Of a stretch of 64,000 nucleotides of DNA, positions 7,039 through 42,081 are shown one piece after another (within the stretch, counting starts at the first letter, position 1; each line of letters begins with the position of its first letter). The position numbers and the translations under genes were made by a program. The DNA comes from Caldisericia bacterium. Lineage in GTDB: Bacteria; Caldisericota; Caldisericia; B22-G15. The notes beneath the pieces were generated by a model that was given only the letters and a program-made list of their open reading frames with translations, was not told where the DNA came from and made no database searches. The stretch lies in contig JASEFN010000001.1 of assembly GCA_030018355.1 (NCBI GenBank), positions 124,001 through 188,000 on the forward strand, given 5' to 3'.

Positions 7039-7040
7039 AT

Positions 7041-7832
7041 TTACATTAAACCTCTAAAGGCACCACCATCTATCAAAAGAGTAACACCTGTTACATAACT
7101 TGCTCTTTCAGATAAAAGAAATGTAACAACATCAGCATACTCTTCAGGATCTCCAACTCTACCTAAAGGTATCTCTTTCGTTAATTTATTTAACTCTTCT
7201 TCAAAAGTTGTCCCATTTTTCTTACTTCTATTTTCAATCACTTTTCTTAACCTATCTGTCATTGTATATCCAGGTGCAACACAATTTGCAGTTATATTAT
7301 ACTTTCCGACTTCTCTTGATAAACTTTTAATAAAAGCAACAACTGGTGTTCTTGAAACATTAGAGAGAATGATATCTTGAAGTGGCTCTTTAACAGAAAT
7401 TGATGTTGAAGCAACAATTCTACCATATTTTTGATTTATCATATACTCTATAAATGCATAAGTTAAGTTAATTGTGCTCATTAAATTCAAATTGATAGCA
7501 TCAAGATAATCTTTTTCTTTAAAATCAAAAAAGCCACCCGTTGGTGGACCACCACAATTTATAAAAAGAAGATGAATTGTTCCATAAAATTTAATAACTT
7601 CTTCTTTAAATTTCAAAATATCATCTTTTTTTGTTAAATCACATGGATAAACAAAAATCTCAGTTGTGAAACTTTCCTCGATTTCTTTTTTTAAATCATT
7701 GAGATCTTTTTCACCTCTCGCACAAACTGCAAGGCGTGCCCCTTCTTCAGCAAGGGAAAAAGCTACCGCCTTTCCTAAACCCTTGCTTCCTCCTGTAACA
7801 ACTGCAATTTTGCCTTTTATTCCAAGATCCAT
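7041..7832 (-). CDS. SDR-family oxidoreductase with atypical active site
   Basis: A 263-residue short-chain dehydrogenase/reductase. The NAD(P)-binding glycine motif GGSKGLGKA, the later NCGG and the IDGG near the C-terminus are present. The catalytic YxxxK is not: at the expected place the protein reads SNVSRTPVVAF, so Tyr and Lys appear to be replaced by Ser and Arg. This matches the BKR-like SDR subgroup that lacks the standard tetrad, so the reaction is uncertain. ATG 7832 is chosen because an AAAGGAGG site lies just upstream; a longer frame runs back into the previous gene. It is the last gene of the operon 12926-7041, 14 bases after the DUF362 gene. Confidence 0.85.
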   Translation of the reverse strand: MDLGIKGKIAVVTGGSKGLGKAVAFSLAEEGARLAVCARGEKDLNDLKKEIEESFTTEIFVYPCDLTKKDDILKFKEEVIKFYGTIHLLFINCGGPPTGGFFDFKEKDYLDAINLNLMSTINLTYAFIEYMINQKYGRIVASTSISVKEPLQDIILSNVSRTPVVAFIKSLSREVGKYNITANCVAPGYTMTDRLRKVIENRSKKNGTTFEEELNKLTKEIPLGRVGDPEEYADVVTFLLSERASYVTGVTLLIDGGAFRGLM

Positions 7833-7846
7833 AAAAACCTCCTTTT

Positions 7847-8941
7847 TTATGTTTTTAAAATTTTTGAAATAATGCCTCTTTTTAAATAAATTGCTCCCTC
7901 TGGACATAGTTCATGACAACAATAACATAAGACACATTTTTCTCTATTAAAATTAGGATATGGATTTAAAGTTATCGCTTTTCCAGCACATACAGATGCA
8001 CAAACTCCACACTTGACACATTTGTTTTTATTAACATATGGTTTTGGTTGAATATAATCACCTAAATATCTGTAAATGAGGGAAGCAATTTTTGAGGTTC
8101 CTTTTAAAGTCAAAAGAAATGTTTTTGGTTTTTCAGATTTCTTTATAAATTCATTAATATTTCCATCTAATTCATAATTTAGAGGAATCTCATTTTTAAA
8201 AAGAGGAACATCATTTATTTCAAAATCCATAATTTTACTCATTATTAAATCAGCAATTAGTGGATCATCTGAAATAATTAAACAATTATAAGTAACTGGA
8301 TTTCCAAAAGACGGACCATCTCCTTCCATTCCTAAAATTCCATCCATCAAAATAATTTGAGGAACTGGTAAAAATTTATTAATATCAATTAAAACTTTTG
8401 AAAATAAAATAGGATCAGAAATTGAGTGAATAGTCAATCTATCTTTTCTGGGTATTAAACCAAAAAGATTTTTTGTTGCTCCACTAATAAAAGTTAATGA
8501 GTGTGTTTTCATTTTTGGAAGATTAAAAACTCTTTTAACTTCCCAAAGAACTTGGGAGAGTTTTATCTCTAGCCCATTTACAGATTTACCTGCAACTCTA
8601 AATCCATAAATTCCAAGATCTTCAATTTTTAAATTTTCACCTTCTAAATCTAAAACTCCAGAAAGTTCTTTAAGTTTTGCTCCACTCATTGATCTTCCAG
8701 GAATATCTCCAATAATTACATTTAGATTATTTTCAAGAAGAAATTTCACGAATGCTTTTATAAAAATTGGGTGTGTTGTTACTGCTCTTTCAGGTGGATT
8801 ATAAGATAAAAAATTTGGTTTAACAAGAACCTTATCCTGTGGCTTAAGTCCATTTAAAATAAAATTTTTATTTTCTAAAAAAACACTCTTTATTAAATCT
8901 TCATTATATTCATTTACTTTTCTTATTATTGCTTTTGCCAT
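7847..8941 (-). CDS. DUF362 protein with two [4Fe-4S] ferredoxin motifs
   Basis: A 364-residue protein. The N-terminal ~290 residues are a DUF362 domain, with VKPNFLSYNPPERAVTTHP near the start and MKTHSLTFISGATKNLFG in the middle. The C-terminus carries two CxxCxxCxxxC motifs (CVKCGVCASVC and CVLCYCCHELC), enough for two [4Fe-4S] clusters. The family is common in anaerobes and its reaction is not well established; an electron-transfer role is inferred. ATG 8941 has a GAGG site 9 bases upstream, better than the in-frame TTG at 8956. It overlaps the topoisomerase gene by 32 bases. Confidence 0.85.
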   Translation of the reverse strand: MAKAIIRKVNEYNEDLIKSVFLENKNFILNGLKPQDKVLVKPNFLSYNPPERAVTTHPIFIKAFVKFLLENNLNVIIGDIPGRSMSGAKLKELSGVLDLEGENLKIEDLGIYGFRVAGKSVNGLEIKLSQVLWEVKRVFNLPKMKTHSLTFISGATKNLFGLIPRKDRLTIHSISDPILFSKVLIDINKFLPVPQIILMDGILGMEGDGPSFGNPVTYNCLIISDDPLIADLIMSKIMDFEINDVPLFKNEIPLNYELDGNINEFIKKSEKPKTFLLTLKGTSKIASLIYRYLGDYIQPKPYVNKNKCVKCGVCASVCAGKAITLNPYPNFNREKCVLCYCCHELCPEGAIYLKRGIISKILKT

Positions 8942-13020: not shown

Positions 13021-13095
13021 GGGCGAATGGCTCAGCGGTAGAGCACTTGCTTCACAAGCAAGGGGTCACAGGTTCGACTCCTGTTTCGCCCACCA
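13021..13095 (+). tRNA. tRNA-Val (anticodon CAC)
   Basis: All arms fold: acceptor GGGCGAA with TTCGCCC, D-arm GCTC/GAGC, anticodon stem CTTGC/GCAAG around loop TTCACAA, and T-arm ACAGG/CCTGT. The CCA end is encoded at 13093-13095. It is the first of four tRNAs. Confidence 0.95.
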
Positions 13096-13112
13096 TAGGG
13101 AGCGAAATGAGC

Positions 13113-13189
13113 GGGGTCGTGGTGTAGCGGTCCAACACGCCAGCCTGTCACGCTGGAGATCGCGGGTTCGAATCCCGTCGATCCCGCCA
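13113..13189 (+). tRNA. tRNA-Asp (anticodon GTC)
   Basis: Acceptor GGGGTCG pairs with CGATCCC including one G-U pair. Anticodon stem CCAGC/GCTGG holds loop CTGTCAC, and T-stem GCGGG pairs with CCCGT (closing G-U). CCA is encoded at 13187-13189. The gene is very GC-rich in an AT-rich region. Confidence 0.95.
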
Positions 13190-13190
13190 T

Positions 13191-13265
13191 GCGGGAGTAG
13201 CTCAGTGGTAGAGCACCACCTTGCCAAGGTGGCCGCCGCGGGTTCGAGTCCCGTCTCCCGCTCCA
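13191..13265 (+). tRNA. tRNA-Gly (anticodon GCC)
   Basis: Acceptor GCGGGAG pairs with CTCCCGC. Anticodon stem CCACC/GGTGG holds loop TTGCCAA, and the T-arm is GCGGG/CCCGT. CCA is encoded at 13263-13265. It starts one base after the end of tRNA-Asp. Confidence 0.95.
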
Positions 13266-13303
13266 ATAAGAATTTCATTTTTATCATTTTCCATACAATT
13301 TTT

Positions 13304-13375
13304 GCCAGCGTAGCTCAGTGGTAGAGCGGCTGATTCGTAATCAGCTGGTCGCCCGTTCGAGTCGGGTCGCTGGCT
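13304..13375 (+). tRNA. tRNA-Thr (anticodon CGT)
   Basis: Acceptor GCCAGCG pairs with CGCTGGC. Anticodon stem GCTGA/TCAGC holds loop TTCGTAA, and T-stem GCCCG pairs with CGGGT. Unlike the three tRNAs before it, no CCA is encoded (CTT follows the discriminator base), so CCA-adding enzyme is needed. The hppA start codon lies only 24 bases downstream with no terminator between. Confidence 0.95.
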
Positions 13376-13399
13376 CTTAAAAATTGAGGAGGTTAAATA

Positions 13400-26734: not shown

Positions 26735-27697
26735 ATGAAAAAAATCCTTTTCTTTACAGATACACATCTACAGGAAGACCCTATTTCTTCAAGAAAAGAT
26801 GATTATCTTAAATCAATTTTAACAAAAATAGAAGAGGTGTCTCAAATTGCAAATGATGAAAATGTAGATTATGTTTTATTTGGTGGTGATTTTTTTACAA
26901 GACCTTCTCCAAGTTATGAAGTTACAATCTCTTTAACACAAGTTTTGAAAAAGTTCAATTCAAGACCAATAATAGGAATTCTTGGCAATCATGACATTGA
27001 AGGAAGAAATCCTGAAACATATAATAGAAAAGCAGTAAAAATGCTTGAAGAGGCAAAAGTTTTAAAAATAATTAAAGAAGGGGAAATTTTTCCACAATTT
27101 GATGAAGAAATTGAAATTGTGGGTATAAATTATAAAAATGGTATTGATGATAACATTGAACTACATAAAATAAAAAAGAGGGATAGAAGTAAAATTTTAA
27201 TTGTACTTGTGCATGCATATCTTCTTCCTTTTAAAGCAAATTTTCCACATATTCCAATTGAAGAAATCTCAAAAATAAGCGAAGGAGATATTTTTTTAGT
27301 TGGTCACTATCATGATGGATATGGGATAAGAGAAATAAATGGAAAAATTTTTGTATCTCCAGGAAGCATTGCAAGAGATTCAAAAACTCAATTTGATAGG
27401 ATACCACAAATTGCTCTTTTAAATATAAATAATGGAAAAATTGATATTAAGTTGGTAAAATTAAAAAATGTAAAAAGAAGAGAGGAAATTGAATTAAAAG
27501 AAGAGAGAGTTTTAAATTCTGAATTTTCTTTTCTTGAATATTTTAAGGCTCTTAAAGATGAAAATTTAGGTGCTTCAATTGATCCTGAAAAAATTTTAAA
27601 TGAAATATTAAGTGATAGAAATATAGAAGATGAAGTAAAGGAAGAAGTTAAAAAAAGATATTATGAAGCAAAAGAGAGAATATATAAAAAATATTGA
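26735..27697 (+). CDS. Mre11/SbcD-type DNA repair nuclease
   Basis: A 320-residue metallophosphoesterase, the nuclease partner of Rad50. Metal-binding motifs in order: TDTHLQ (Asp9, His11), FGGDFF, LGNHD, VHAYL and GHYHDGYG. The C-terminal part is short and charged, suitable for contact with the Rad50 coils. It lacks the longer cap and tail of eukaryotic Mre11. First gene of the cluster mre11-nurA-herA-rad50-like, and it overlaps nurA by 35 bases. In archaea the same four proteins process double-strand breaks to give 3' tails; that role is inferred here from the neighbours. Confidence 0.9.
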   Translation: MKKILFFTDTHLQEDPISSRKDDYLKSILTKIEEVSQIANDENVDYVLFGGDFFTRPSPSYEVTISLTQVLKKFNSRPIIGILGNHDIEGRNPETYNRKAVKMLEEAKVLKIIKEGEIFPQFDEEIEIVGINYKNGIDDNIELHKIKKRDRSKILIVLVHAYLLPFKANFPHIPIEEISKISEGDIFLVGHYHDGYGIREINGKIFVSPGSIARDSKTQFDRIPQIALLNINNGKIDIKLVKLKNVKRREEIELKEERVLNSEFSFLEYFKALKDENLGASIDPEKILNEILSDRNIEDEVKEEVKKRYYEAKERIYKKY

Positions 27698-28670
27698 TTA
27701 TTTTAAGGAAAAATTTAATAAACTAAATAATAAAATAGAGAGTCTCTTAGATATAGAAAATAATAAAATTTTTATTGATTATATTTTAAAAAATAAAGAA
27801 AAAGTACCCATAGACACTTCAAATTTTAAATTTAATACTTTTTTTGTTGATGGCTCTATGTCAAAAATTGGAGAAAGTTTTCCAAATTTTTTCTATATTT
27901 TTAGATCTCTTTCATATTCTCCAAATTTAGATATTAAAATTTTTATCTATGATCTTTTTTCTCCTCTCATTGATGAAGATAGATTACTTTTTGAAGAAAA
28001 ATTGCTTTATCTTCAAAATAAAAAAAATCAAAATGAAATTGATTTAAATATATTTGACATAAATTATGTTGAGGAATACTTAAGATATATTTTGATGGCT
28101 AAACTTGAGATAGAGGCAGCGAAGGAATCAATTAATTATCTTAATAAAGGAGATATGCTTTTTATGGATGGTTCTTTAAACCATTTTAAAGGTGAAGTGC
28201 CTCAAGAATTTAACTCTCTTCTTAAAATATGTTATGAAAAGGAAGTTTTGATATGCGGAGTAGTAGAAGACATTGGAAGTATGGTAATTTCAAATATTGT
28301 TAAAGAAAATGGAAATACAATGAAACCACATGATAAGGAACTTCTAATTGGAAATCTTAATGAGGGAGAAATGATTCATATAAAAGAACCATTTAGAAAA
28401 GAGGGATTTTCTATAACATTTTTAAGAATTTCTTCTGATCCAACGCCAATATCTTTCGAAATTCCAGTAAAGTGGGAAGATAAATATAAAGAAGTTGCTC
28501 AATTTCTAATGTTTATAACTGAAAAATATGGTAGAGGAGTTCCTATTTTCAGAGATTTCGCACATGAAGATGTAAAATTAACTGATAAGGAGAGTTATTT
28601 AATTTCAAAAAATTTTATAAAAAATGAATATTTAGAAAAACTTTTTAAACTTAAAAGGTGGCTAAGATGA
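27663..28670 (+). CDS. nurA: NurA 5'-3' nuclease
   Basis: A 335-residue nuclease with an RNase H-like fold that works on the face of the HerA hexamer. The NurA signature is visible: TFFVDGSMSKIG (catalytic Asp), LFMDGSL, ICGVVED and, near the C-terminus, RGVPIFRDFAHEDVKLT with the conserved His-Glu-Asp. NurA with HerA is typical of thermophilic archaea and is uncommon in bacteria. It overlaps mre11 by 35 bases and herA by 4 bases (ATGA), which supports tight stoichiometry. Confidence 0.88.
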   Translation: MKQKREYIKNIDYFKEKFNKLNNKIESLLDIENNKIFIDYILKNKEKVPIDTSNFKFNTFFVDGSMSKIGESFPNFFYIFRSLSYSPNLDIKIFIYDLFSPLIDEDRLLFEEKLLYLQNKKNQNEIDLNIFDINYVEEYLRYILMAKLEIEAAKESINYLNKGDMLFMDGSLNHFKGEVPQEFNSLLKICYEKEVLICGVVEDIGSMVISNIVKENGNTMKPHDKELLIGNLNEGEMIHIKEPFRKEGFSITFLRISSDPTPISFEIPVKWEDKYKEVAQFLMFITEKYGRGVPIFRDFAHEDVKLTDKESYLISKNFIKNEYLEKLFKLKRWLR

Positions 28671-30436
28671 GTGAAATATATGTAGTTGGGGAAAGTAATC
28701 AATTTGAAGTTTACATTGCTTCAAGAGAAGAAAGATTTTCATTAAGAGATTACTTTTTCATAAAGGATGAAAAAGAGTATCTTGGAGAAATTGTTGAATC
28801 ATATACAATAAATAAATTTTTTCCAAGACCAGACACATTTTCAGAGAGAGATGAAAAAATAATTGAACATCTTAAAATTCTTGGTTTTGATATTGAAAAA
28901 GAAGATATTAATATTGCTAAAATTAAACTTCTTGATGAACCACCATATCCTATTAGAGTTGGAAGTAAAGCAAGAAGAGCCAATTTTTCAGAGATAAAAA
29001 ACATTTTTAAAGTTGAAGAAAAGGGGTTAGTCCTTGGTGGAATTAAAAATAGCGAAAGATTTTATGATGAATTACCTCATAAACTCAAAAATTTATATAA
29101 AATAATTGAAGATGGAAAAGAGAGAGAACAAAGAGAGATCCCTTTTATTTTTACAATTGAAGAAATGATTCAATATCCACACATTGGAATTTTTGGTGGT
29201 TCTGGTTCTGGAAAATCTTTTCTTGTAAGAGTTATGATTGAGGAAATAGCAAAATTTGGATATCCTGCAATAATTTTTGATCCTCATTTTGAAATGAGTT
29301 TTTCAAGTTTAAATAAAGATGAAAAAGGATTATCTGATTTTATTAAAAATATTAGGGTTTTTACAGTAGGAGAAGATACTGGAATCGAATTTTCTGAAAT
29401 TTCAGAAAGAGAACTTGAAAATCTTTTTAAATCAATTGGAGAGGTCGAAATTCCACAAGAAGATGCAATTTATAATGCATACCTAATGATGGGAAATGAA
29501 AGAAGTTTAACAAATTTTAGAGAAAATTTGATTTTCCTCTCACAAAAAAGTAAAGATGAGAGTGATAAAAATATTGTAAGTAGAAGCAGTGCGAGAGCAG
29601 TTTTAAGAAAATTAAGTCATCTTGAAAGATTAAACATATTTGGAAAAAGTGATAGAGAGCTTTTGAACTGGGTAAAAAGCGAAAAGATTGCTGTAATTCA
29701 AGGCTCTCTCGAAACTCTAAAAACTTTTGCATCATTTTTCTTAGAAAAAATTACTGAAAAAAGAAGAGAATATAAAGATGGAGAAAAGAAAGGTGAAAGA
29801 AAAGAATATTTCCCTCCTTTTTTTGTGATTTTGGATGAGGCTCATAATTTTGCTCCAAAAGAATCAATATACTTTATTCCATCAAAAAGAGTTTTAAAGA
29901 CAATTTCACAAGAAGGAAGAAAATATGGAATTTTTTTAATTCTTTCAACTCAAAGACCTTCTCTACTTGATGACACAATTTTAGCACAACTCTCAACAAA
30001 ATTTATTTTAAGAACAGTAAGAGAGACAGATCTTGATACAATTAGAAAAGAGACTGATCTTTCAGGAGTTGATATTGGAAGACTCCCATATTTAAAAACT
30101 GGAGATGCTTTTGTTTCATCAGCAATTTTTCAAAGATCAATTCCAATAAGAATTAGAAAAACTTTCACAAATCCACCACCCTCTAAAAACCCATTCCTTG
30201 AACTTAAAGAGAAAAAAGAAGACAAAAAAGAACAAATTCTTAATTATTTAAAGAGAGAAGGAGTTATTGAGGAAATTTTCTTTGAAAGAGTTATAAAAGA
30301 TTTTGAGGTTGAAGGAGTTATTTTTAAAGATATTAATGAGATTAAAATTGTATTGAATGAACTTGAGAGAGAAGGATTAATAGAAAAAGAAGAAAATCCA
30401 ATTACCACAATTTGGAGAATGAAAAATGCATATTAA
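28667..30436 (+). CDS. herA: HerA hexameric DNA translocase
   Basis: A 589-residue FtsK/HerA-type ATPase. The N-terminal HAS-barrel covers about residues 1-110, then the RecA-like motor with Walker A GGSGSGKS (177-184) and Walker B VILDEAH (Asp390-Glu391), a STQRPS sensor and an arginine-rich segment further on. It pumps DNA into the NurA dimer during end resection. ATG 28667 is chosen for the AAAGGTGG site and the ATGA overlap with nurA; a GTG at 28658 is also in frame. The C-terminal ~90 residues look like a small winged-helix-type tail. It overlaps the rad50-like gene by 11 bases. Confidence 0.92.
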   Translation: MSEIYVVGESNQFEVYIASREERFSLRDYFFIKDEKEYLGEIVESYTINKFFPRPDTFSERDEKIIEHLKILGFDIEKEDINIAKIKLLDEPPYPIRVGSKARRANFSEIKNIFKVEEKGLVLGGIKNSERFYDELPHKLKNLYKIIEDGKEREQREIPFIFTIEEMIQYPHIGIFGGSGSGKSFLVRVMIEEIAKFGYPAIIFDPHFEMSFSSLNKDEKGLSDFIKNIRVFTVGEDTGIEFSEISERELENLFKSIGEVEIPQEDAIYNAYLMMGNERSLTNFRENLIFLSQKSKDESDKNIVSRSSARAVLRKLSHLERLNIFGKSDRELLNWVKSEKIAVIQGSLETLKTFASFFLEKITEKRREYKDGEKKGERKEYFPPFFVILDEAHNFAPKESIYFIPSKRVLKTISQEGRKYGIFLILSTQRPSLLDDTILAQLSTKFILRTVRETDLDTIRKETDLSGVDIGRLPYLKTGDAFVSSAIFQRSIPIRIRKTFTNPPPSKNPFLELKEKKEDKKEQILNYLKREGVIEEIFFERVIKDFEVEGVIFKDINEIKIVLNELEREGLIEKEENPITTIWRMKNAY

Positions 30437-31595
30437 AGAAATAGTTATTAAAAATTTTCAATCACACAAATATACAAAGATTACTCTTTCAGATAAAATA
30501 AATGTTTTTCTCGGAAAAGGAAATAGTGGTAAAAGCGCAATCATAAGAGCCTTAATTTGGGTCTTTTTCAATGAACCTCAAGGAACAAGTTTTATAAGAA
30601 AAAATGAACAAAGTGCTTTTGTATCAATAACACTTGATAGTGGTTTTAAGGTTATAAGAGAAAGAGGAGTTAATATAAATAAATATATTTTAATAACTCC
30701 AGAAGGAGAGAAAAAAGAATTTTCAAATTTTGGAAGAGAAGTTCCAGAAGAAATAAGAAAAGTTCTTGGAATAAAAACCCTTCCACTTGAAAATGGAAAA
30801 AAACTTAACCCTCAAATAAAAGATCAAATTGAAAATATTTATCTACTCGATGAACCACCTTCAACAATCCACTCTACTTTACTTACAATTTCAGGTGGAC
30901 AAGTTTTTGACGAAGCAATAAATTCAATTCTTGTTGACCTTCAAAGATTAGATAGAAGAGAAAAAGATATCAAAAAGGAAATTGATGAAAAAAACAATTT
31001 ACTTAAAAACTTTGAAGGAATAGATGAAAAAAAGGAAGAATTAGTTAAGATAAAAAACGAAATAGATGTTTTCAAAAAAATTCAAGAAAAGAAAAATATT
31101 TTTGAGAAATTAAAACTTGAATTAGAAAACATCAAAAAGGAGAAAGAAGAAATTGAACTAAATATTAACTCATTAAAAAGGGTAGAATTAATTGAGAAAG
31201 AGTCTGATTCTCTCAACTCTAAAAAAGATAAATTGATAAACTTAATAGATCTAAATCAAAAAATAGAAAAAGTAAGAGAAGAAATTAATAAAATTTCACA
31301 TGATTTAAATTTGCTTAAGAAAAGCAATTTAAGTGAAGATTTATCTTTTGAATTAAAAATTAAAAATGAAAAATTAAATAATCTTAAAAATTTAAAAGTT
31401 AATCTTTTAAGAGTCAAAAATGATATTTTCAATTTGGAAAAGGAGTCTAAAGAAATTGAAAAGAAAATAATTGAGGATAAAAATCTATATGTTGCCTTAA
31501 TATTGAATAGTAAAGTTTGTCCTATCTGTACAAGGGAAATTGATGAAAATATGAAAGAAAAGATCAAAGAGAATTTAAATAAAATGTGGAGGTAA
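30426..31595 (+). CDS. Rad50/SbcC-like ATPase, N-terminal lobe plus zinc hook (split gene, part 1)
   Basis: A 389-residue protein holding only the first half of a Rad50/SbcC-like ATPase. It begins IKNFQSHKYT, has Walker A GKGNSGKS (30-37) and a lobe to about 190, then about 170 residues of coiled coil, and ends with the zinc-hook CPIC at 365-368 and 21 more residues. A usual Rad50 returns from the hook through a second coil to a C-terminal lobe; here a TAA (31593-31595) ends the protein first. The missing parts are encoded by the next two genes. The N-lobe resembles the SbcC-like group often labelled chromosome segregation protein SMC. Zinc-hook dimerisation should still be possible. Confidence 0.85.
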   Translation: MHIKEIVIKNFQSHKYTKITLSDKINVFLGKGNSGKSAIIRALIWVFFNEPQGTSFIRKNEQSAFVSITLDSGFKVIRERGVNINKYILITPEGEKKEFSNFGREVPEEIRKVLGIKTLPLENGKKLNPQIKDQIENIYLLDEPPSTIHSTLLTISGGQVFDEAINSILVDLQRLDRREKDIKKEIDEKNNLLKNFEGIDEKKEELVKIKNEIDVFKKIQEKKNIFEKLKLELENIKKEKEEIELNINSLKRVELIEKESDSLNSKKDKLINLIDLNQKIEKVREEINKISHDLNLLKKSNLSEDLSFELKIKNEKLNNLKNLKVNLLRVKNDIFNLEKESKEIEKKIIEDKNLYVALILNSKVCPICTREIDENMKEKIKENLNKMWR

Positions 31596-31598
31596 GGT
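31587..31598 (+). promoter_or_regulatory. Shine-Dalgarno site overlapping the end of part 1
   Basis: TGGAGGTAAGGT: the GGAGG at 31588-31592 ends immediately before the TAA stop (31593-31595) of the N-lobe gene and lies 6 bases before ATG 31599. The placement indicates real re-initiation and argues against a simple nonsense error. Confidence 0.75.
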
Positions 31599-31877
31599 AT
31601 GAGTAATGAGGATATCATTGCAAAAATTGATTTGATTCATCAAAAAATAAAACAGTATATAAAAAAGAGAGATGAGTTAACTGGAAAACTTGAAGCACTT
31701 AAAAAAAGGGAAGAAGAGATTTTTTTAGAACTGAAGGAAAAGTATGGTATTGAATCTATTGAAGAATTAAATGAAGAGATAAATAAACTTGAGAGAGAAA
31801 TAAAAGAGAAAATAACAAAACTTGAATATTCAATAAAAGAGATAGAAAATGAACTCAATAGAAAGTATAGAGAATAA
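31599..31877 (+). CDS. Short coiled-coil protein, middle piece of split Rad50-like ATPase (part 2)
   Basis: A 92-residue, almost wholly helical, Lys/Glu-rich heptad protein with no cysteine. It lies in the same reading frame as the N-lobe gene, separated by one TAA and a GGT codon, and has its own ribosome site and ATG. By position it corresponds to the start of the returning coil after the zinc hook. It could run antiparallel to the coil of part 1, bridging it to part 3. It overlaps part 3 by 29 bases in another frame. Confidence 0.7.
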   Translation: MSNEDIIAKIDLIHQKIKQYIKKRDELTGKLEALKKREEEIFLELKEKYGIESIEELNEEINKLEREIKEKITKLEYSIKEIENELNRKYRE

Positions 31878-32520
31878 TTTTTTCAAAATTTATCAATTTG
31901 TTGAAAGAAAATTAGGGGAGAGAGAAAGAATTAAAAAAGAAATTATAGAAAAAGAAAATGAATTAAAAAAAATTGAAAAAGATAAAATTATTTTAAAAAA
32001 AAGTGAAGAGATATTAAAAAATGCGTATGAGAGAATAAGAAAAAACACAATGGAAGGAATAGAGATACTTGTTAATAAAGCGCTACAAAAAATTTTTGAT
32101 GATTTAGTATTTAGAATAGAACTTGAGGATGAAAGAAATAAAAAAGTTGCAAAACCTCTTATTAAAAAGATAACCCAAAATTTTGAGTTTGAGGGAGATC
32201 CACTTAATTCAAGTGGTGGAACTGTAAGTCAAATAATTTCTCTTGCTTTAAGAATAAGTATTCTTGAGAAGAGTCTTAATCCCAGATTTGAAGGTCCATT
32301 AATTTTAGATGAACCGCTTACTTTTCTTGATGAGGGAAGTAAAAGAAAAATTGGGGAGTTTATAAAATCAGTAAGTGAATATTTAAGAAGACAAATTATT
32401 TTAATAACTCATGATAGAATTTTAATGGAAATTGGGGATAAAACTTTCTATGTGACACAAGAGAATGGTGAAAGCATAGTTAAAGAGATTGAAAATATAG
32501 AAGAGATAGAGGAAATTTAA
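31849..32520 (+). CDS. Rad50/SbcC-like ATPase, C-terminal lobe (split gene, part 3)
   Basis: A 223-residue protein with the second half of the ABC-type ATPase. About 75 residues of coiled coil come first, then the signature motif NSSGGT (120-125, in the place of LSGGE), Walker B LILDEP (Asp154-Glu155), the D-loop FLDEGS and the H-loop LITHD. It has no Walker A, so it must pair with the N-lobe protein to make a working site. ATG 31849 lies inside part 2 (+1 frame). Together the three parts make about 704 residues, a little shorter than a typical Rad50. Confidence 0.85.
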   Translation: MNSIESIENNFFKIYQFVERKLGERERIKKEIIEKENELKKIEKDKIILKKSEEILKNAYERIRKNTMEGIEILVNKALQKIFDDLVFRIELEDERNKKVAKPLIKKITQNFEFEGDPLNSSGGTVSQIISLALRISILEKSLNPRFEGPLILDEPLTFLDEGSKRKIGEFIKSVSEYLRRQIILITHDRILMEIGDKTFYVTQENGESIVKEIENIEEIEEI

Positions 32521-32596
32521 AAATTTGAAACTTTCCCCTTTTTTATTAGTTTAATATATTATACAATTTATAAGAATAGATATGAAAGGAGGTAAA

Positions 32597-33076
32597 ATGA
32601 AATTTATTAAAATTGTTTTATTATTAATTGCTTTGTTGAGTCTACTATTTTCATTGAGTGCGTGCGCTATAAAAGAAAAAGAACAAATTGTAAAACTTTT
32701 TTATTACAATCCTGAACTTGATAAAGATCAAGAAGGTAATATTTTATGCAGTGAAAAAGGACTTGTTCCAGTTGAAAGAAAGATTAAAAGTGATAATGTA
32801 ATTGAGAATACTATTAAACTTCTTTTAGATGGAAAATTGACAGATGAAGAGAAAAGCAAAGGAATTACAACAGAATATCCTCTTGAAGGTGTTAAATTAA
32901 TTAAAAGTGAATTAAAAAATGGGACACTTATTTTAACTTTTGAAGATCCATATTTCAGAACATCTGGTGGTGCCTGTAGATCAAAAATATTGTGGCTTCA
33001 AATTGAATATACAGCAAAACAATTTGATGAAGTTAAAGAGGTAAAATTTTACCCAGAAGACCTTTTCCAACCATAA
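32597..33076 (+). CDS. GerMN-domain lipoprotein
   Basis: A 159-residue exported lipoprotein: basic start, hydrophobic helix and a lipobox ending LSAC. The rest is one GerMN domain (KLFYYNPELDKD at the start, then the LLDGKLTDEEK helix and a GTLILTFEDPYF strand), a fold found in spore germination protein GerM and in many non-sporulating bacteria, with unknown ligand. The start at ATG 32597 has AAAGGAGG before it; an earlier in-frame ATG (32582) lies upstream of that site. It follows the rad50-like genes by 76 bases and is probably unrelated to repair. Confidence 0.85.
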   Translation: MKFIKIVLLLIALLSLLFSLSACAIKEKEQIVKLFYYNPELDKDQEGNILCSEKGLVPVERKIKSDNVIENTIKLLLDGKLTDEEKSKGITTEYPLEGVKLIKSELKNGTLILTFEDPYFRTSGGACRSKILWLQIEYTAKQFDEVKEVKFYPEDLFQP

Positions 33077-33184: not shown

Positions 33185-36100
33185 TTATGGATAGTAGGTG
33201 ATTGTTACTTTCTGTAAAACCGGATCCCAGTCAACTTTTGCTCCAAATGCTTCTGCTATAAATCTAATTGGAACTACTGTTCTTCCTTGTGGTTCAACAG
33301 TAAATGGAGCAACATCTAATACATATGGTTTTCCATTTACATATGCAATTTTATTTCCAAGTTGCATATCAATAATAACCATTGATCCATCGCTCTTCTT
33401 AAGTTCAATATGAATTCCTTCAGTTTTTGGATCCCAATCAACTTTTGCTCCAAATGTTTCAGCAATAAATCTAAGTGGAACCATTGTTCTTCCAGGTGGC
33501 ATTGTGAATGGAGCAATCTCATAAATAACTGTAGTTGTAACACCATCTTTTGTTACCTTTATAACTGGTGAGTCAATTATCATTTCAATTATTATCTCTC
33601 TTCTAAATTTAACTGTCTTTGAAACAGTTGATACATTTCCTGCTTTATCTTGTGCTTTCACTACAACCTGAATTTCATTTTCACCGACAGGAATTGTTAA
33701 GGTGTATGAGAACGATCCATCTGGATTTACTAAAACAGGTTCATCATTTATTGTAACTGTTGCACCAACTTCAGTTGTTCCCTTAATCTCAAATATCCTT
33801 TCTAAAACATTTTCTGGAATAATTACTTGAAGTTTTGGTGGAGTTGTATCAAGTGTAACTGAAATTCTTTTTGTTTTTGTTAGAGTTCCTTTTTCTGCTT
33901 TAATCACAATTGTATTTAATCCTTCAATTAATGTGTAAGAAGTTTCGAATTTTCCTTCTTCATCAACATCTATCTCTTCATCATTTATGTAAACAGTTGC
34001 ACCCTTATCAGTTGAACCCTTAATTGTTATTACTGGAGTATTTACAAATGAAGGTATAGGTTCAACATTTAATGTTAGTGTTGGTGGTTTATAAGTTACA
34101 TATATTTCTTTAATACCAATATTTCCAAATTCATCAACAGCGATAACTCTAATTCTATTTGTTCCTTCATCAAGTGTTACATAAGTCATAAATGTGCCGT
34201 CTGGAAGAAGGTCAACTCTCATTCCATTTACATAGACTGCTGTCACTGAAGATTCATCTGATACTTTTCCTATAACTTCAATTTTTGTTTTTTGAGTTTC
34301 GCTTCCATCCTCTGGTTCAAGTATAGTTATTTCAGGAGGAGTTGTATCTTCTGTTACCTCTCTTGCATAGAAATAGTCATAGAAAACATACTCCTTATCT
34401 TGTTTCTTTACTACAATATCATATCCACCTGCATATTTTGGTTTAAAGTCGGTAAAAACAACTGTGCCTGAATTGTCAGTATATCCTTTCAAGTCATATA
34501 CTGTTTGAGCATAGTTATATGCAAATGTTATTCCCACTTCTGCACCTAAAATAGGATTATTATGAGCATCTACAACAGTTATCTTAATTCTATTTGGTTT
34601 ATTAACAATTGCCTTATCAATTATTGTTCCTTGAGGTGTTGAAATTTCTACAGTCACCTTTACTGATACAAGATCAAATTCATTTAAAATGACATATTTT
34701 CCAACTGGAGTATCATTTGTTGTGTAGTAAAGAATAACTTTTGGTGAATCTTTTAGTGTTGGATTTTTGTTATCTCTTCCATTAACTGTTAATGTTCCAG
34801 ACGAAACTCCACTTAGTGAAACCTTATTCATAATTACTGTTCTAAATCCAAATGGCGCACCATAAGAATCAAGTTTTCCATCTGCTCCAACCTCTTTTGC
34901 ATAGAATGGTGCATTTGTTATTGGATCAAATAGTGAGAATGTTACAACTTCATTTATTTCAGCAGAAAGAATATTATCTTGTGGAGTTATAACCAACTTT
35001 GGTTTAACAATTGGGATATCAATTTCTCCGTATGTATCTCTATTTGGTCCAATTGCAACAATTTTTGCTTCTCCTTCTTCAAGATATGGTTCACCAAGAG
35101 TAAGTGTAAATGTACCATTCATATTATTTACAAATGTTGAGCCTTTCGAACCAATTGCTATCATCTCTGAACCATTAGGAACACCTGGCGCATTTATCAA
35201 AAGTTGATGTTTTCTTCCAGCAAGAATCTTGTTATAGGTTGTTATTCCATCTATAGAAAGAAGAGATATATTAAGAGTTTTCTTTGGTTTAATAACAAAT
35301 GCATAAGGTAAATATCCCATAATTTTTGAAGTTGGAATACTTGGATCACCAGTATAAACTTTAACAAGAGTGTATCTTCCAACTTCAAATGGTGTTCTTT
35401 CTTTTTCAGGATCTGCTGCGTGGTTAAATCCTACATTGAGTTGAGTATAAACTCCATTAACAATATTTTGATTAAGAGGATCAAGGTGGGATGCATCAAT
35501 TGTAATTTTTGGTGTTGCTCCACCTACATTAAACATATCTCCTACAGGTGAACCATCTTTGTTATATCCCCAAATCTCTACCCAAGCATTATTTCTTGGA
35601 ACACCATTCTCATCAAGAACTGTAACACTTATACTACCTACTCCACCTTGAACAATCTCTTGTGGTGCTGTTTCAACTTTTATCTTAAATCCTAAAATAT
35701 TTGTGAATTTATTGAATAATTTAAAGTTAATTTCACTATCAGAAACTTTTCCATTTTCTTCATCACTTCTATTATCAACACCTCTTAAGGTAAATTTTAG
35801 ATTAATTGGAAGTTCAGTGTACATACAAGGTATAAATTTAAGTTTAATTTCAGTATCGCTTCTTGAAATCTCCTCAACAAATATTGTGTCATCTTTATCA
35901 ATTTCATATCCTTTTGCTGGATCAAAAACAACAAGGCCAGGTGTTGGTGGTTGATGGAATCCGAAAACAAGAATATACTCTTCTCCTACAACTGCTGGAA
36001 TCATCTCTCTATCTAATCTTACAGATTTTAGATCAATGTAAGCATATGGATTATAAAGAGATAGTGGTTGAATTGGTAAAGATAAAAGAACCGCACCAGC

Positions 36101-39100
36101 AACTTTAACAAGTAGTGACCCACTTCCTGTTCCAACTGGAGTTAGAGAAATAAGATATGTTCCTTTTGTTATTGGTTTAACTAACTTATTTTGGAGTGTC
36201 CAACCTGGTGGAAGTTCAAACGTGAACTTATCTTTAAGATTTAAAGACAATTCATCAAGAGGATTTCCTGATGAATCTGTAACAAAAATTGTGAAGTAAT
36301 TTAATTTATTTGCATAAAGAACTGTTGGTTCAACAAGAAGAGTGGCTTTATAATTTGGAGCACCAATTGTGAAAGGTCTATATGGAACAGGATTACCTAT
36401 CTGATTGTAATATCTTCCATATTTATAATCACCTAAACCACTTTTCTCATTTCCAACTCTTGTAAAGATAGCATAACTTCCAAGTTCATCAATTATTGCA
36501 TAAATCTTAAAATATCCATTTGGACCAAGTTTTACAGGTGCATATGTTTGAGGTGGAAGATTTGCTCTTACTATTTCGTTTATAGGTCCATCTGAAATAT
36601 TTACTCTTTCATAACCTTTAACTGGATCAACCTTCCAAAGTTCAACATAAACATCATTATTTCCTGGGGTAAGGCTTCCTGGAAGTTGAAGTGTCCCTTC
36701 TATAATTTGTGGAGTTGAAAGATCAACAGTTAGTTTAGATAAATCAGTTGTAATTGTATCTTTATATTTAAGGTAAATATACATATAAACTTTTGGATTG
36801 GTTTGTGCTTCAATAATATAGATCCCATCATACTTTGCGCCTTGATAACCTGTAACAGAATTAAAACTCCCTGTAACAATAGAGAAAAGACCATTTATAT
36901 CAGTAGATGTTGTATAAACAACTGAAGACCAAGGTTCAAGATAAAAGTTACCATATTCATCAAATCTTCCTGGACCTGTCATAGTTATAGTTACAAAATT
37001 TAATGGATCAAGTTTACCATCAAAATTCAGGTCTGATAATGTAGTAAGAGTTCCAGGAAGAGTATCGCCAATTGTTGCTATTAATATACCATCACATCCT
37101 GTTTGTCCACCCACTGTCATTAAAGGAGTTGCTTTGAATTCAAACTGTTCATAATCTTCAAGCCACCATTTTGTTGAAGGATAAGAAGGCACAACATCAC
37201 CCCTTATAGTTACAGTTGTAACTTGTCCAACATTTAGACCAAGTTCTTGTGCTGAAATATAAATTGGAATATTAACCCATTGCCCTGGAGTTGAAACAGG
37301 AGGTGATTTATCAATAATTTTTGCATATCCAGTATTTGTTGTAATTGTAACTTTTAATTTATCACCAAGTTGATCAATATACCACTTAATATTTACCAAA
37401 AATCCAGATCCACATAATTTAAATGAACTTTTAACAACATCAACAAGAGCATTTACTCTTACAAAACCCGAAGTTATCGCCCAATCTGGTGGCATCAATG
37501 GAGGAACAGTTGAAGAAATAGTTCCACAACAAGAAGTATATACTGTTGCAATTATATAACCAGTTGGATGATAGTTTGAAGATGCAGTAAATAGACCTGT
37601 TTCAGAATCAATTGTACCAATAGGAATGGCTGGATCATTATTTAAAATACTCCATTTTGGAGATGGAGTAATAACTGTATGATATAAAGCATCTTCGGTT
37701 CTTGCAAAAAATTGTTGTCTTTCCCCAGAAATCAAACTTATACTATCAGGAGTCACCCAAACTTTTATTCCCATTGTTACTTGGGCAAAAACTGGATTTG
37801 AATTATATACAATAGAAAATCCACCACATGCATTTCCTGGACACCCATCATTGTAATTAAATGAAGCCCATATATTGTATGTTCCACCACCACATGAAGG
37901 TGAATAGAAGGTCCCATTTTTATCAATTGTGGCATTTATATCTTCATAATCATTTAATCTTATATCACCTATCTCAACTATGCCATTTCCATTAGTATCT
38001 ATATAAAGAGGCTCACCAGGGTTCCAGGCTACATCTCCATTATTATCTACAAATTTTATTGGTGAACTTTGAAAAGAATTTAGAGAATGTGTTATATCTG
38101 TATCAGTAGGGCCAACTATTGAATTTGGTTTATAATTTGAAACCCATGCTAACCTTATATCACCAGAAGATACAGTACCAGAATTATCAACATCTATATA
38201 TATAGGCTCTCCCCAATCATATAAACCATTTCCGTTTGTATCAACAAATTTTTCTGAAGAAGTAAAAGAAATTAAATTAATTGAATCTGCAGGCGTATCA
38301 CCTGCTAAAGATAAATCTTTATCACCAAATTGTACTTTAGAACCTGATGGATATATTATCCAATCATTTATTGATGTATCAAATATTTTTACTTCACTTA
38401 CTCTAATATCTCCGATAGAAATTGTACCAGAACTATCCATATCTTTATATATATATTCATATAACTCAATTAAATTATTGTCACCAGCAAGAGGAGCAAT
38501 ATCTGTTCCTGGATCAAATAGTCCATTTCCATTAACATCTGTCCATTCAATATCCACTCCAGTAGGTGTATATTTTCCATCACTACTTAAATTCTCAGCA
38601 TGAAGGGGTTCAAATGAAACAAGAGGTGTTCCAATATCACCATCACCATTTGAAACATCTCCAGGGGCAAGACCACAAGCACATGAAACTAATCTTTTAT
38701 CATTTTTACTTACTTTATTATCAACATCTATATCTATATATAAATATTCACCTAAATCATAAGTTCCATTCCCATTTAAGTCAACAAATTTTACATTGGT
38801 TAAGGAAATTAATGATTTACCTGAATCTTTATCACCAACGATAGAGTTTGCAGGGAAGATGTTTCCTTTACCATCTTTTACATCTGTTAATCTAATATCA
38901 CCTTCACTTACTTTTCCATCGCTATCAACATCTCTATAAATATTCTCTCCAATATGGTATACAATTGGAATAGAAGATACCTCTTCTGTATGTTTTTCAT
39001 TTGGTTTAAAATCGATTAATGTTCTTCCCATATCTGCTTCACAGGTTGGACATAGTGTACCAACAATAGAACCAGCAGGATAAGTTATCGTGCCTATCTT

Positions 39101-41989
39101 AACAAGAGTTAATCTTACATCTCCATAAGACACTGCACCATTTGAATCCATATCTTTATAAATCCATTCACCAGCATCATAAAGACCATTTATTGATACA
39201 TTTTCAGTGTGTCTTTCAATTCCAGGTACAAAATTAAATAAATTTTTATCTTTATCAGGTGAAAAGTCAACCTTTGAGTTCTTTGGATAACCCACTCCCC
39301 AATTCACAAAGTTTTCAGCAAATGGAATTGAATTATTATTTTTATCTGTAACAGTTGCTTTAAATTGATAATTTGTACATGGTGCTATCCAAATTATCTG
39401 TGGTGAAATAACTACCTTTGGTGGTCCTAAAAATACTACAACTTTACTTGTTACTGTTCTTGTAATTGCTCCAATTGTTAAATTACAAGTTATTGTATGT
39501 TGTTGTGGTGGTCCAGTTATTACAGGTGATGTGTAAAAACCATTTCTATCAATAGTACCACCGCCAGTTGAGATAGACCAACTCATAAAGAATGGTTGTG
39601 AAATTCTTAAATCACCACTATCAACAATTTTATTGCTCTTAAAATCTATATAAAATTGTACTGGTTCATTATCATCCCAAACTTTGTTGTTATTATCATC
39701 ATAAAATCTGTATATAATTGGGTAATAAGATAAATATGATTCACCATTATATATTGATATATCTTTTAGTTCAAAAAATTTATACTGTTCTATATATGGA
39801 TTATATGGTTTTGCATCAAAATCAGTATTAAATCCATCATCTTTAACTGTTGTTCCTGCCTCATAGTGATAAAATTTTCCATCTTTTGTCCAGAAAGAGA
39901 TTGGTGTCATTCTAACATCACCAGGAGTTACACTTCTTGAATTATCAAGATCAAGATAGATAAAATCACATGCATCAAACACATCATTTGTATTTGTATC
40001 CAAAAATCTTAATGAAGGAGTAAAAAGTCTTGTATCATTTGTATCAACTAAATTATTAGTATTATTGTCTATATAAATCCTTTCACCAGGTGAATATGAA
40101 CCAGATGAATCTTTATCAACATATTTTAAATTACCACCAAATGCTGTTAAACTTAATCCAACATCTGCATCTATCCCTAAAACAGTTGTTCCTGCTTTAT
40201 AATATTTTCCACCAAAATTTACATTTGATAATCTTTTATCACCAGCATTTACTGTTCCATCTAAACTATAATAAATCCAATCAGCAGGGCTATAACTTCC
40301 GGAATTATCTCTATCAACAAATCTTTCATTTGCAGAAAAAACACTTAAAGCATTACCATCATCTTCATCGCTTAATTTAACTATTGTTCCATTAGTTGGA
40401 TTTGGAAATGTATATAGATATTCAAGAGGTCTTCCTAAATCTGGATCTAAAGTTTTAACAACTGTTCCTGGAGTGCTACCAGCATAAAATGAACCAGAAA
40501 TTCTAATATCTCCTCTTGATACAGTTTTTGAATTATCAGTATCAAAATATATACAATCTAACTGGTCATAAAATCCATTTCCATTTGTATCACAATATCT
40601 AAAATTAGCATCATGACCATCTTCAGGTGGATCTTGAGGTGCTGCTATTTTTCTTTCAAAATCATCAAAAAATAGAGTAGTTCCTGTTAAAGTTTTTATA
40701 TAAAAATCATCCCAATAAGTTTCTCTTGCAGTTGCATCACCACCATATTGCCAAACACCAAAAATTCCTGTAAGAATAGGTGAAGGATCTGTATAATCAA
40801 TATATAAAGTATTATCAACATAAACTTTTATATTTGAACCTGATGCAACAATTTTTAAGTTATAAAATGTATTTGCTAAACCAATCGTAAAAACTTGTGT
40901 TGTCAAGACAGTGTTAACTCCGTTAACAACTTTTACAAGTCTTATATTTCCACCCCAAAAATCAACATAATAACCATTTGCTTTTGGATTATTTCTTGTA
41001 AGGTAATCATTAAATCTAAATTTTACACCACCATGGTAATTTGAAGTACTACTAAATGCTATTTTTGTTTCGAGAATAAAATCTGATAGATTTTTATTGT
41101 AAAGGGGGTGAATGAATAGAGATGTATCATCAGGACCAACTACATTTGGATGTGATAGATAAATAAAATTACCTGTTCCAAATGGTGTATCCCATCTCCA
41201 CCCTGCTGGATTACCTGTATCACTTATTCTAAACCATCTTGCAGTGGGTATAATTTTCGAAGGATCATTAGTTGCATTAATTCCGCAATCATCATCTGCA
41301 TCTCTTACAAATGTACCAAATCCATGGGTAAAACCCTCATAAATTGTATTTCCATAAATATCTTTAGGCTGTGGAACAAGTATAGTGTTATTACCAAAAC
41401 TTGCATTAATACCCCCTGTAGGGTAATAGTTTGATTCTACAAATGCTGGATCTGGTATTAATACCATATGGTCAAATAGTCCAGGTTTAACATAAATTGA
41501 GAATAAGGATTGAATATGTTTATTTGTTTGTAATTTTATTTGATAGAATCCAGATTTTGTTGGGTTTTTAATTCCACATGGTAATAAAAATGTAAGTGTG
41601 TGATTAAGATCTTTAGGAAGATTAATTGAAGTTATAACAGCAATTCTTTTATTTAATAAATCAACTTGAACATCTGAAATATTATTACTTCCATCAATTA
41701 AAACTTGAGTTTTTGGAATTACATTTGGAATATAAAATTCTTTTTGTGCATCTCCGGTTGGGTCAGTGGGGAAAATTACTTGAATATTATCTGTATTTGC
41801 TAATAGATCTACAGTTTTTAATTCAAAAATTATATCTATTCTTGTAATCTCACCAACAATATCTGGAGTTAAAGTGATTTCTTTAATAATTGTTTCATTA
41901 GCAAGATTTAATCCTAAAGATAAATTAAATTTAGGAAGATAAACAAAAATTAATAGTAGAGTTAAAAAAATCCCTAAAAATTTTTTCAT
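33185..41989 (-). CDS. Giant secreted multidomain repeat protein
   Basis: A 2,934-residue protein with a signal peptide (about 1-25). In order: an export-type beta domain (~30-160); a LamG/DUF1080-like sugar-binding fold (~240-442, ending FFDDFER); eleven units of paired D-x-N-x-D calcium-loop motifs (~460-1350) interrupted by Ig-like segments; many Ig/carboxypeptidase-regulatory-like domains to ~2540; Glucodextranase-B-like Ig domains after DTTPP at about 2548; and at the end two copper-amine-oxidase-N-type halves (each with VPxRFIAExFGAKVDWDP, ~2804-2934), a module common on thermophile surface proteins. No LPXTG, S-layer homology or C-terminal anchor is seen. ATG 41989 has an AAAGGAGAGG site; an in-frame ATG at 42025 does not. 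Likely an adhesin, surface fibre or envelope layer component; exact role unknown. Confidence 0.85.
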   Translation of the reverse strand: MKKFLGIFLTLLLIFVYLPKFNLSLGLNLANETIIKEITLTPDIVGEITRIDIIFELKTVDLLANTDNIQVIFPTDPTGDAQKEFYIPNVIPKTQVLIDGSNNISDVQVDLLNKRIAVITSINLPKDLNHTLTFLLPCGIKNPTKSGFYQIKLQTNKHIQSLFSIYVKPGLFDHMVLIPDPAFVESNYYPTGGINASFGNNTILVPQPKDIYGNTIYEGFTHGFGTFVRDADDDCGINATNDPSKIIPTARWFRISDTGNPAGWRWDTPFGTGNFIYLSHPNVVGPDDTSLFIHPLYNKNLSDFILETKIAFSSTSNYHGGVKFRFNDYLTRNNPKANGYYVDFWGGNIRLVKVVNGVNTVLTTQVFTIGLANTFYNLKIVASGSNIKVYVDNTLYIDYTDPSPILTGIFGVWQYGGDATARETYWDDFYIKTLTGTTLFFDDFERKIAAPQDPPEDGHDANFRYCDTNGNGFYDQLDCIYFDTDNSKTVSRGDIRISGSFYAGSTPGTVVKTLDPDLGRPLEYLYTFPNPTNGTIVKLSDEDDGNALSVFSANERFVDRDNSGSYSPADWIYYSLDGTVNAGDKRLSNVNFGGKYYKAGTTVLGIDADVGLSLTAFGGNLKYVDKDSSGSYSPGERIYIDNNTNNLVDTNDTRLFTPSLRFLDTNTNDVFDACDFIYLDLDNSRSVTPGDVRMTPISFWTKDGKFYHYEAGTTVKDDGFNTDFDAKPYNPYIEQYKFFELKDISIYNGESYLSYYPIIYRFYDDNNNKVWDDNEPVQFYIDFKSNKIVDSGDLRISQPFFMSWSISTGGGTIDRNGFYTSPVITGPPQQHTITCNLTIGAITRTVTSKVVVFLGPPKVVISPQIIWIAPCTNYQFKATVTDKNNNSIPFAENFVNWGVGYPKNSKVDFSPDKDKNLFNFVPGIERHTENVSINGLYDAGEWIYKDMDSNGAVSYGDVRLTLVKIGTITYPAGSIVGTLCPTCEADMGRTLIDFKPNEKHTEEVSSIPIVYHIGENIYRDVDSDGKVSEGDIRLTDVKDGKGNIFPANSIVGDKDSGKSLISLTNVKFVDLNGNGTYDLGEYLYIDIDVDNKVSKNDKRLVSCACGLAPGDVSNGDGDIGTPLVSFEPLHAENLSSDGKYTPTGVDIEWTDVNGNGLFDPGTDIAPLAGDNNLIELYEYIYKDMDSSGTISIGDIRVSEVKIFDTSINDWIIYPSGSKVQFGDKDLSLAGDTPADSINLISFTSSEKFVDTNGNGLYDWGEPIYIDVDNSGTVSSGDIRLAWVSNYKPNSIVGPTDTDITHSLNSFQSSPIKFVDNNGDVAWNPGEPLYIDTNGNGIVEIGDIRLNDYEDINATIDKNGTFYSPSCGGGTYNIWASFNYNDGCPGNACGGFSIVYNSNPVFAQVTMGIKVWVTPDSISLISGERQQFFARTEDALYHTVITPSPKWSILNNDPAIPIGTIDSETGLFTASSNYHPTGYIIATVYTSCCGTISSTVPPLMPPDWAITSGFVRVNALVDVVKSSFKLCGSGFLVNIKWYIDQLGDKLKVTITTNTGYAKIIDKSPPVSTPGQWVNIPIYISAQELGLNVGQVTTVTIRGDVVPSYPSTKWWLEDYEQFEFKATPLMTVGGQTGCDGILIATIGDTLPGTLTTLSDLNFDGKLDPLNFVTITMTGPGRFDEYGNFYLEPWSSVVYTTSTDINGLFSIVTGSFNSVTGYQGAKYDGIYIIEAQTNPKVYMYIYLKYKDTITTDLSKLTVDLSTPQIIEGTLQLPGSLTPGNNDVYVELWKVDPVKGYERVNISDGPINEIVRANLPPQTYAPVKLGPNGYFKIYAIIDELGSYAIFTRVGNEKSGLGDYKYGRYYNQIGNPVPYRPFTIGAPNYKATLLVEPTVLYANKLNYFTIFVTDSSGNPLDELSLNLKDKFTFELPPGWTLQNKLVKPITKGTYLISLTPVGTGSGSLLVKVAGAVLLSLPIQPLSLYNPYAYIDLKSVRLDREMIPAVVGEEYILVFGFHQPPTPGLVVFDPAKGYEIDKDDTIFVEEISRSDTEIKLKFIPCMYTELPINLKFTLRGVDNRSDEENGKVSDSEINFKLFNKFTNILGFKIKVETAPQEIVQGGVGSISVTVLDENGVPRNNAWVEIWGYNKDGSPVGDMFNVGGATPKITIDASHLDPLNQNIVNGVYTQLNVGFNHAADPEKERTPFEVGRYTLVKVYTGDPSIPTSKIMGYLPYAFVIKPKKTLNISLLSIDGITTYNKILAGRKHQLLINAPGVPNGSEMIAIGSKGSTFVNNMNGTFTLTLGEPYLEEGEAKIVAIGPNRDTYGEIDIPIVKPKLVITPQDNILSAEINEVVTFSLFDPITNAPFYAKEVGADGKLDSYGAPFGFRTVIMNKVSLSGVSSGTLTVNGRDNKNPTLKDSPKVILYYTTNDTPVGKYVILNEFDLVSVKVTVEISTPQGTIIDKAIVNKPNRIKITVVDAHNNPILGAEVGITFAYNYAQTVYDLKGYTDNSGTVVFTDFKPKYAGGYDIVVKKQDKEYVFYDYFYAREVTEDTTPPEITILEPEDGSETQKTKIEVIGKVSDESSVTAVYVNGMRVDLLPDGTFMTYVTLDEGTNRIRVIAVDEFGNIGIKEIYVTYKPPTLTLNVEPIPSFVNTPVITIKGSTDKGATVYINDEEIDVDEEGKFETSYTLIEGLNTIVIKAEKGTLTKTKRISVTLDTTPPKLQVIIPENVLERIFEIKGTTEVGATVTINDEPVLVNPDGSFSYTLTIPVGENEIQVVVKAQDKAGNVSTVSKTVKFRREIIIEMIIDSPVIKVTKDGVTTTVIYEIAPFTMPPGRTMVPLRFIAETFGAKVDWDPKTEGIHIELKKSDGSMVIIDMQLGNKIAYVNGKPYVLDVAPFTVEPQGRTVVPIRFIAEAFGAKVDWDPVLQKVTITYYP
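37950..40602 (-). repeat. Protein-level tandem repeat region of the giant gene (about 11 units)
   Basis: Eleven diverged units, full period roughly 65-75 residues where contiguous. Core: FVDxNGNGxYDxGExIYID followed by DNSGxVSxGDIRL, then a YPAGSxVG-like hairpin and D-x-D-x-G. Each unit carries two dockerin/EF-like loops of Asp/Asn at alternate positions. Units 1-5 (about 40602-39610) and 6-11 (about 39220-37950) form two blocks. Copies differ widely in DNA, so expansion was not recent. Confidence 0.75.
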
Positions 41990-42081
41990 TCTTTCCTCTC
42001 CTTTCTTCCTTTTTTTAATTAACATAACTCCCTATTACACCTCTCTATTTATAAAAAATTTTATAATAAAATAAAAATAAT

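Follow-up and report, generated by a model that had tools for sequence, protein, structure and literature searches.

Rad50-like ATPases encoded by three separate genes in a Caldisericia bacterium and in many Bacillota

We analysed a stretch of 64,000 nucleotides (nt) from a Caldisericia bacterium (assembly GCA_030018355.1, contig JASEFN010000001.1, positions 124,001 to 188,000 of the forward strand), hereafter the window, whose own numbering is used throughout. It contains a Rad50-like ATPase divided over three genes, here named p1, p2 and p3, in the gene order Mre11-NurA-HerA-p1-p2-p3. In nearly all known life Rad50 is one long chain, which turns back on itself at the zinc hook. The features of the locus, with protein lengths in amino acids (aa), are as follows:

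26735..27697, plus strand: Mre11/SbcD-like metallophosphoesterase, 320 aa; Pfam Metallophos, 53.2 bits (cut-off 21.5)
27663..28670, plus strand: NurA-like nuclease, 335 aa, overlapping the Mre11 gene; Pfam NurA, 54.1 bits (cut-off 21)
28658..30436, plus strand: HerA-like translocase, 592 aa, overlapping the NurA gene; Pfam HerA central domain, 81.1 bits (cut-off 23.2), and HerA models
30426..31595, plus strand: p1, Rad50 N-lobe, rod and zinc hook, 389 aa; Pfam AAA_23, 29.9 bits (cut-off 27), PHROG 16465 and a Rad50-head fold match
31588..31592, plus strand: GGAGG, ribosome-binding site of p2, within the last p1 codons (W-R-stop) and 6 nt 5' of the p2 ATG
31599..31877, plus strand: p2, 92 aa, two predicted helices (3-49 and 54-91), in the same frame as p1
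31849..31877, plus strand: overlap of p2 and p3, 29 nt, ATGAACTCAATAGA, identical in four family genomes
31849..32520, plus strand: p3, Rad50 C-lobe with an N-terminal coil, 223 aa, in the +1 frame relative to p2; PHROG 15167, E=2.9e-33

The Walker A motif (GKGNSGKS) lies near residue 30 of p1 and the CPIC hook at residues 365-368, and p3 holds the SSGG signature (121-124), the Walker B motif PLILDE (150-155) and an H-loop THD (H188). The p1 gene stops at a TAA (31593-31595), which is followed by GGT and then by the p2 ATG at 31599. A first-pass annotation made from the sequence alone had described a Rad50-like ATPase in three genes, and its coordinates, motifs, frames, overlap and GGAGG spacing all agreed with our re-check of the sequence and open reading frames (ORFs). 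It had also placed the break at the zinc hook. The split itself held, and its place was refined in two points: the first break (p1/p2) lies about 21 residues past the hook, not within it, and the second (p2/p3) about half-way along the expected return arm.

The same three parts, with the same two breaks, were present in three other genomes of the family (G003, G002 and G004), none of which showed a continuous frame. Identities to the window were 86%, 66% and 61% for p3 and 83%, 55% and 49% for p2, respectively, and 70% and 51% for p1 in the two relatives aligned (the G004 p1 is divided over two contig ends). The Mre11-like protein, which gave weak matches to mre11/sbcd models, was 80% identical to its G003 counterpart. 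While p2 and p3 are offset by +1 in all four genomes, p1 and p2 are in one frame only in the window and G003; in G002 and G004 their frames differ, which excludes the TAA as a lone variant. In all four, p1 ends in a basic residue followed by M-W-R, with an invariant GTGGAGGTA(A/G) that forms a ribosome site 5-6 nt 5' of the p2 ATG; the invariant overlap at the p3 start codes in two frames, and every p1 carries a CPxC hook. Ratios of nonsynonymous to synonymous substitution (dN/dS) were mostly 0.06-0.46 and all below 0.6, indicating purifying selection on every part. Across the family the split operon occupies the same place between housekeeping genes; in a further genome (G001) its upstream part is present and the contig ends inside HerA. 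Since three relatives share the three parts, and in two of them p1 and p2 are not in the same frame, the split cannot be put down to a sequencing error or to a lone stop. An artefact of sequencing or assembly, or decay into a pseudogene, would fit the single in-frame TAA of the window, but deserves next to no credence and is rejected, given the recurrence of the breaks in three relatives and about 50 distant loci, the selection on every part and the other genes that separate the parts in phages and prophages. This removes the doubt about sequence errors that the first-pass annotation had raised; the Rad50 split in the window is real, and with its conservation in relatives and distant loci and the selection on its parts it goes far beyond chance.

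The split is not confined to a single genome either, as had first been assumed. When 84,980 species genomes were scanned with a p3 alignment, 74 loci were returned; in about 50 of them, nearly all in Bacillota and one in Cloacimonadota, p3 occupied a stop-to-stop frame of 213-297 aa lacking Walker A and CxxC. In every clear relative p3 stood free, at about 220 aa, except in a head-only fusion of the Bacillota genome G113; the weaker loci that were examined proved to be other ATPases, about 530-600 aa long. In the distant loci p3 is preceded by p2, usually of 77-92 aa, and by p1, for the most part of about 430-510 aa, and a CxxC lies 12-48 residues (median 22) before the C-terminus in all 47 p1 proteins of this wider set. 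The GG of the signature, the DE of Walker B and the TH of the H-loop were invariant among 17 diverse p3 proteins. Mre11 is adjacent or near in nearly all distant loci. Many Bacillota show the order recA, Mre11-like, p1, p2, p3, rny-like, the names recA and rny being given by resemblance to those families. A Syntrophothermus locus (L100) has NurA-like and HerA-like genes ahead of Mre11, and G169 has HerA there. Among phage protein families, PHROG 16465 corresponds to p1, 18563 to the Bacillota form of p2 and 15167 to p3. A tree of p3 placed the window clade on a long branch outside the Bacillota groups and beside the Cloacimonadota row, a join that may reflect long-branch attraction. One locus, in Caloramator australicus (L120:6195-8567), has a p1 without its hook end and a late-starting p3, a pattern that disruption or errors in the draft sequence would give.

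Recoding, in which stop readthrough and +1 frameshifting would yield one continuous Rad50 chain, is consistent with the shared p1/p2 frame in the window and G003 and with the constant +1 offset of p3 in the four family genomes. However, p1 and p2 are out of frame in G002, G004 and 39 of 46 wider loci, where their offsets spread as 7, 19 and 20 across the three frames, and the ribosome site and start codon of p2 are conserved. In addition, the parts lie apart in prophages, in one Cloacimonadota contig and in one jumbo phage. Whole genes stand between p1 and p2-p3 in two loci, the distance from the end of p1 to p2 being 2.7 kb in L143 and 3.7 kb in L135, and all three parts are separated in the jumbo phage (LR745208), whose order is p1, an Mre11-like gene, a p2-like ORF, an unrelated 377-aa gene and p3, with other genes interspersed. 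These relatives and dispersed genes lead us to reject recoding as very improbable. Phage vB_BboS-125 has, exactly between p1 and p2, an ORF (L163:5179-5751) whose annotation is AP2-domain protein. AP2-domain ORFs can be homing endonucleases; if this one is, it may hint at how the split arises. Microbacterium phage Magritte (L207, L208) carries a p1-like gp155, which has no CxxC, and a p3-like gp2 tens of kilobases apart.

Two gene fusions tie the parts to each other and to the nuclease. On a Geobacillus subterraneus plasmid (L166:1271-4642), Mre11 and p1 form one 801-aa protein (Metallophos at 1-223, AAA from 361), with p2 and p3 as separate genes; the plasmid annotation names the fusion only as an AAA family ATPase and p2 and p3 as hypothetical. 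The G113 fusion (L199, reverse strand, about 6652-8754) is a 700-aa chain of Mre11, p1 head and p3 head without rod, coiled coil, zinc hook or p2, and is a natural minimal Mre11-Rad50 fusion. Together they indicate a single machine of Mre11, p1 and p3, and point to the rod or hook, not the head, as the place of p2.

The distribution of the family was compared with that of single-chain SbcC in 200 Bacillota genomes, 82 of which were SbcC-positive (match at E<=1e-15). The split family occurred in 37 genomes, only one or two of which (one clear, one weak) also had SbcC; among the remaining 163 genomes about 80 did (Fisher p between 1e-8 and 2e-7 in a test that ignores shared ancestry). In the window genome the sole SbcC match covered 46 residues, in a frame that reads as an ABC transporter, and G003, G002 and G004 gave no match of SbcC length, whereas the sister-family genomes G010 and G018 encode a single-chain SbcC of about 1030 aa. 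The split family thus seems to replace the normal SbcC, and this avoidance suggests a shared core function.

Such a core function bears on whether the ATPase could instead belong to an anti-phage defence system with HerA and NurA as defence partners. The window proteins do resemble defence components: p1 matched AriA (6e-17), p3 matched mad3 (7e-18) and HerA matched defence HerA models, and a comparison with anti-phage ATPases (PARIS AriA, MADS, Lamassu), made on the ATPases, gave weak to moderate matches. These matches can be explained by the common fold of defence ATPases, however, and unlike defence islands the locus keeps a fixed place, flanked by housekeeping genes in the window family and by recA and the rny-like gene in many Bacillota. 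Together with the SbcC avoidance, this makes a defence role unlikely.

Profile searches against the PDB identified Rad50 heads as the nearest solved relatives of both p1 and p3. In some of the Rad50 structures matched (1f2t_A/B, 3qkr_A/B) the N and C segments are separate chains, indicating that a two-chain head can form. AlphaFold2 models were made for p1 continued into p2 across the in-frame TAA, and for p2 alone. The joint model, whose overall arrangement is unreliable (mean predicted local distance difference test score 76, predicted template modelling score 0.35), contained the N-lobe, helices at 158-195, 199-249, 253-297 and 305-362, the hook, a segment at 374-389 and two p2 helices, and a fold search with it returned Rad50 heads first. 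On our reading of the window rod, about 207 residues would run from head to hook and about 191 back, comprising 21 of the p1 tail, the 92 of p2 and about 78 of the p3 coil, so that the two lengths roughly balance; breaks in the rod fall about 64 and 114 residues from the hook in the ascending arm and about 74 and 113 in the returning one. Mixed fragment alignments misplaced p2 on coils and were excluded. The p1 rod of Bacillota is built on a 47-residue repeat, with a hydrophobic autocorrelation of 0.277 at lag 47 and 0.245 at lag 94 (maximum 0.042 over 500 block shuffles; related sequences pooled), and p1 lengths step by about 47 residues (389, about 438, about 484). Strictly alternating hairpins of the p1 helices are disfavoured because the repeat number differs by one between relatives and a one-repeat change would shift the hook to the opposite end.

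The place of p2 is where an alternative keeps the most weight. It is possible, if somewhat doubtful, that p1 and p3 alone make up the ATPase and that p2 is a separate regulatory subunit and not part of the rod. A conserved C-terminal LLPK motif in Bacillota p2 should break a helix, p2 length does not follow p1 length, and in LR745208 one gene separates p2 from p3. Yet p2 is helical and coil-like, lies beside p3 in nearly all loci, and is missing from the very fusion that also lacks rod and hook.

In our assessment p1, p2 and p3 are very probably translated as separate subunits of a single Rad50-type ABC ATPase, whose partners are the Mre11-like nuclease and, here, NurA-HerA. Assembly of the ATPase from separate chains, which the first-pass annotation had anticipated, is supported by the motifs, the operon, the fusions and the phyletic pattern. 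Coupled translation, probable because the genes overlap or abut and the p2 ribosome site lies inside the p1 end, would produce the three proteins together. The N-lobe of p1 and the C-lobe of p3 would pair to form the head, with a predicted ATPase activity. As p1 holds the rod and carries the whole hook, hook-to-hook dimerisation would need p1 only, two p1 hooks sharing a zinc ion. The head-proximal return arm would be provided by p3, and p2 most likely packs along the mid-rod. Mre11 would bind the base of the coil and NurA-HerA take over resection, so that the machine would recognise and process DNA ends, with a presumed role in break repair. Beyond the gene level this scheme draws on the known Mre11-Rad50 and NurA-HerA systems (NurA-HerA: PMC9960219).

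Several observations count against this assignment. The Pfam zinc-hook model remained below its cut-off on p1 (15.5 vs 24.3 bits), no curated NCBIfam Rad50/SbcC cut-off was reached (best 57.9 bits vs 700), a fold search with p2 gave no meaningful structural match, and shared ancestry inflates the split/SbcC avoidance. Moreover, the rod lengths fail to close in Bacillota, where p1 is about 95 residues longer without a matching gain in p2 or p3; this mismatch might be met by several p2 per p1, or by p1 repeats that pair in part within p1 or with a second p1. A modular rod, with p1 made of 47-residue repeats and p2, whose two helices have about the length of a repeat, a free tile pairing with two of them, is a speculative proposal to which we give little weight.

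The family resembles Rad50/SbcC in its N-lobe with Walker A, its predicted rod and CPxC hook, its C-lobe that bears signature, Walker B and H-loop, and its Mre11-like partner gene, a partnership for which adjacency and the two fusions provide genomic evidence. It differs in comprising three genes and not one chain, kept separate in all clear relatives but the G113 head-only fusion, and in the residues after Walker B (KHVS in most split relatives, TFLD in the window family). To our knowledge a free-standing p2 has no counterpart in Rad50/SbcC. By the way it would work the split family is a Rad50, but it falls outside single-chain membership and all curated NCBIfam cut-offs. The Pyrococcus furiosus Rad50 head (PDB 1f2t/1f2u) likewise has its N and C segments as separate chains; that head is an engineered construct, whereas the separation of p1 and p3 is natural. 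As in the archaeal HerA-Mre11-Rad50-NurA operon, four functions are joined in one operon, although the window operon is bacterial, has the order Mre11-NurA-HerA-p1-p2-p3 and holds Rad50 in three pieces. PHROG lists 16465, 18563 and 15167 separately, as exonuclease, unknown and ATPase, and does not join them as one Rad50. Yoshida et al. (PMC3175470) described Mre11/Rad50 fusions, of which those of Anaerostipes and Bacillus phage 0305phi8-36 had no observed SbcC P-loop segment; the word "split" is absent from their text. Fusions of the same partners occur in the present family, and these two cases may be unrecognised examples of the split. No description of a three-gene Rad50 was found in the literature searched (openly licensed papers).

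Directly 3' of p3 lies a lipoprotein gene with a Germane (sporulation/germination) domain (32582-33076, plus strand), which also follows p3 in G003 and G002. Elsewhere in the window we noted a surface-type protein of 2946 aa (33185-42025, minus strand), which combines glucodextranase B domains and a copper amine oxidase N-terminal domain with many D-x-N-x-D-rich repeats, and four consecutive tRNA genes for Val, Asp, Gly and Thr (13021-13376, plus strand).

If the three proteins do form one machine, the covalent turn at the hook is not required in Rad50, the ATPase head can be assembled or taken apart, and small separable subunits become available for testing communication between hook, rod and head. 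Should the rod be modular as well, its length would change through more p1 repeats and more p2 copies, and the arm would be a multi-subunit assembly of variable length and not one folded chain. The split family fills an apparent SbcC gap in many Bacillota, and recognising it would put right labels like 'ParA' and 'hypothetical protein'.

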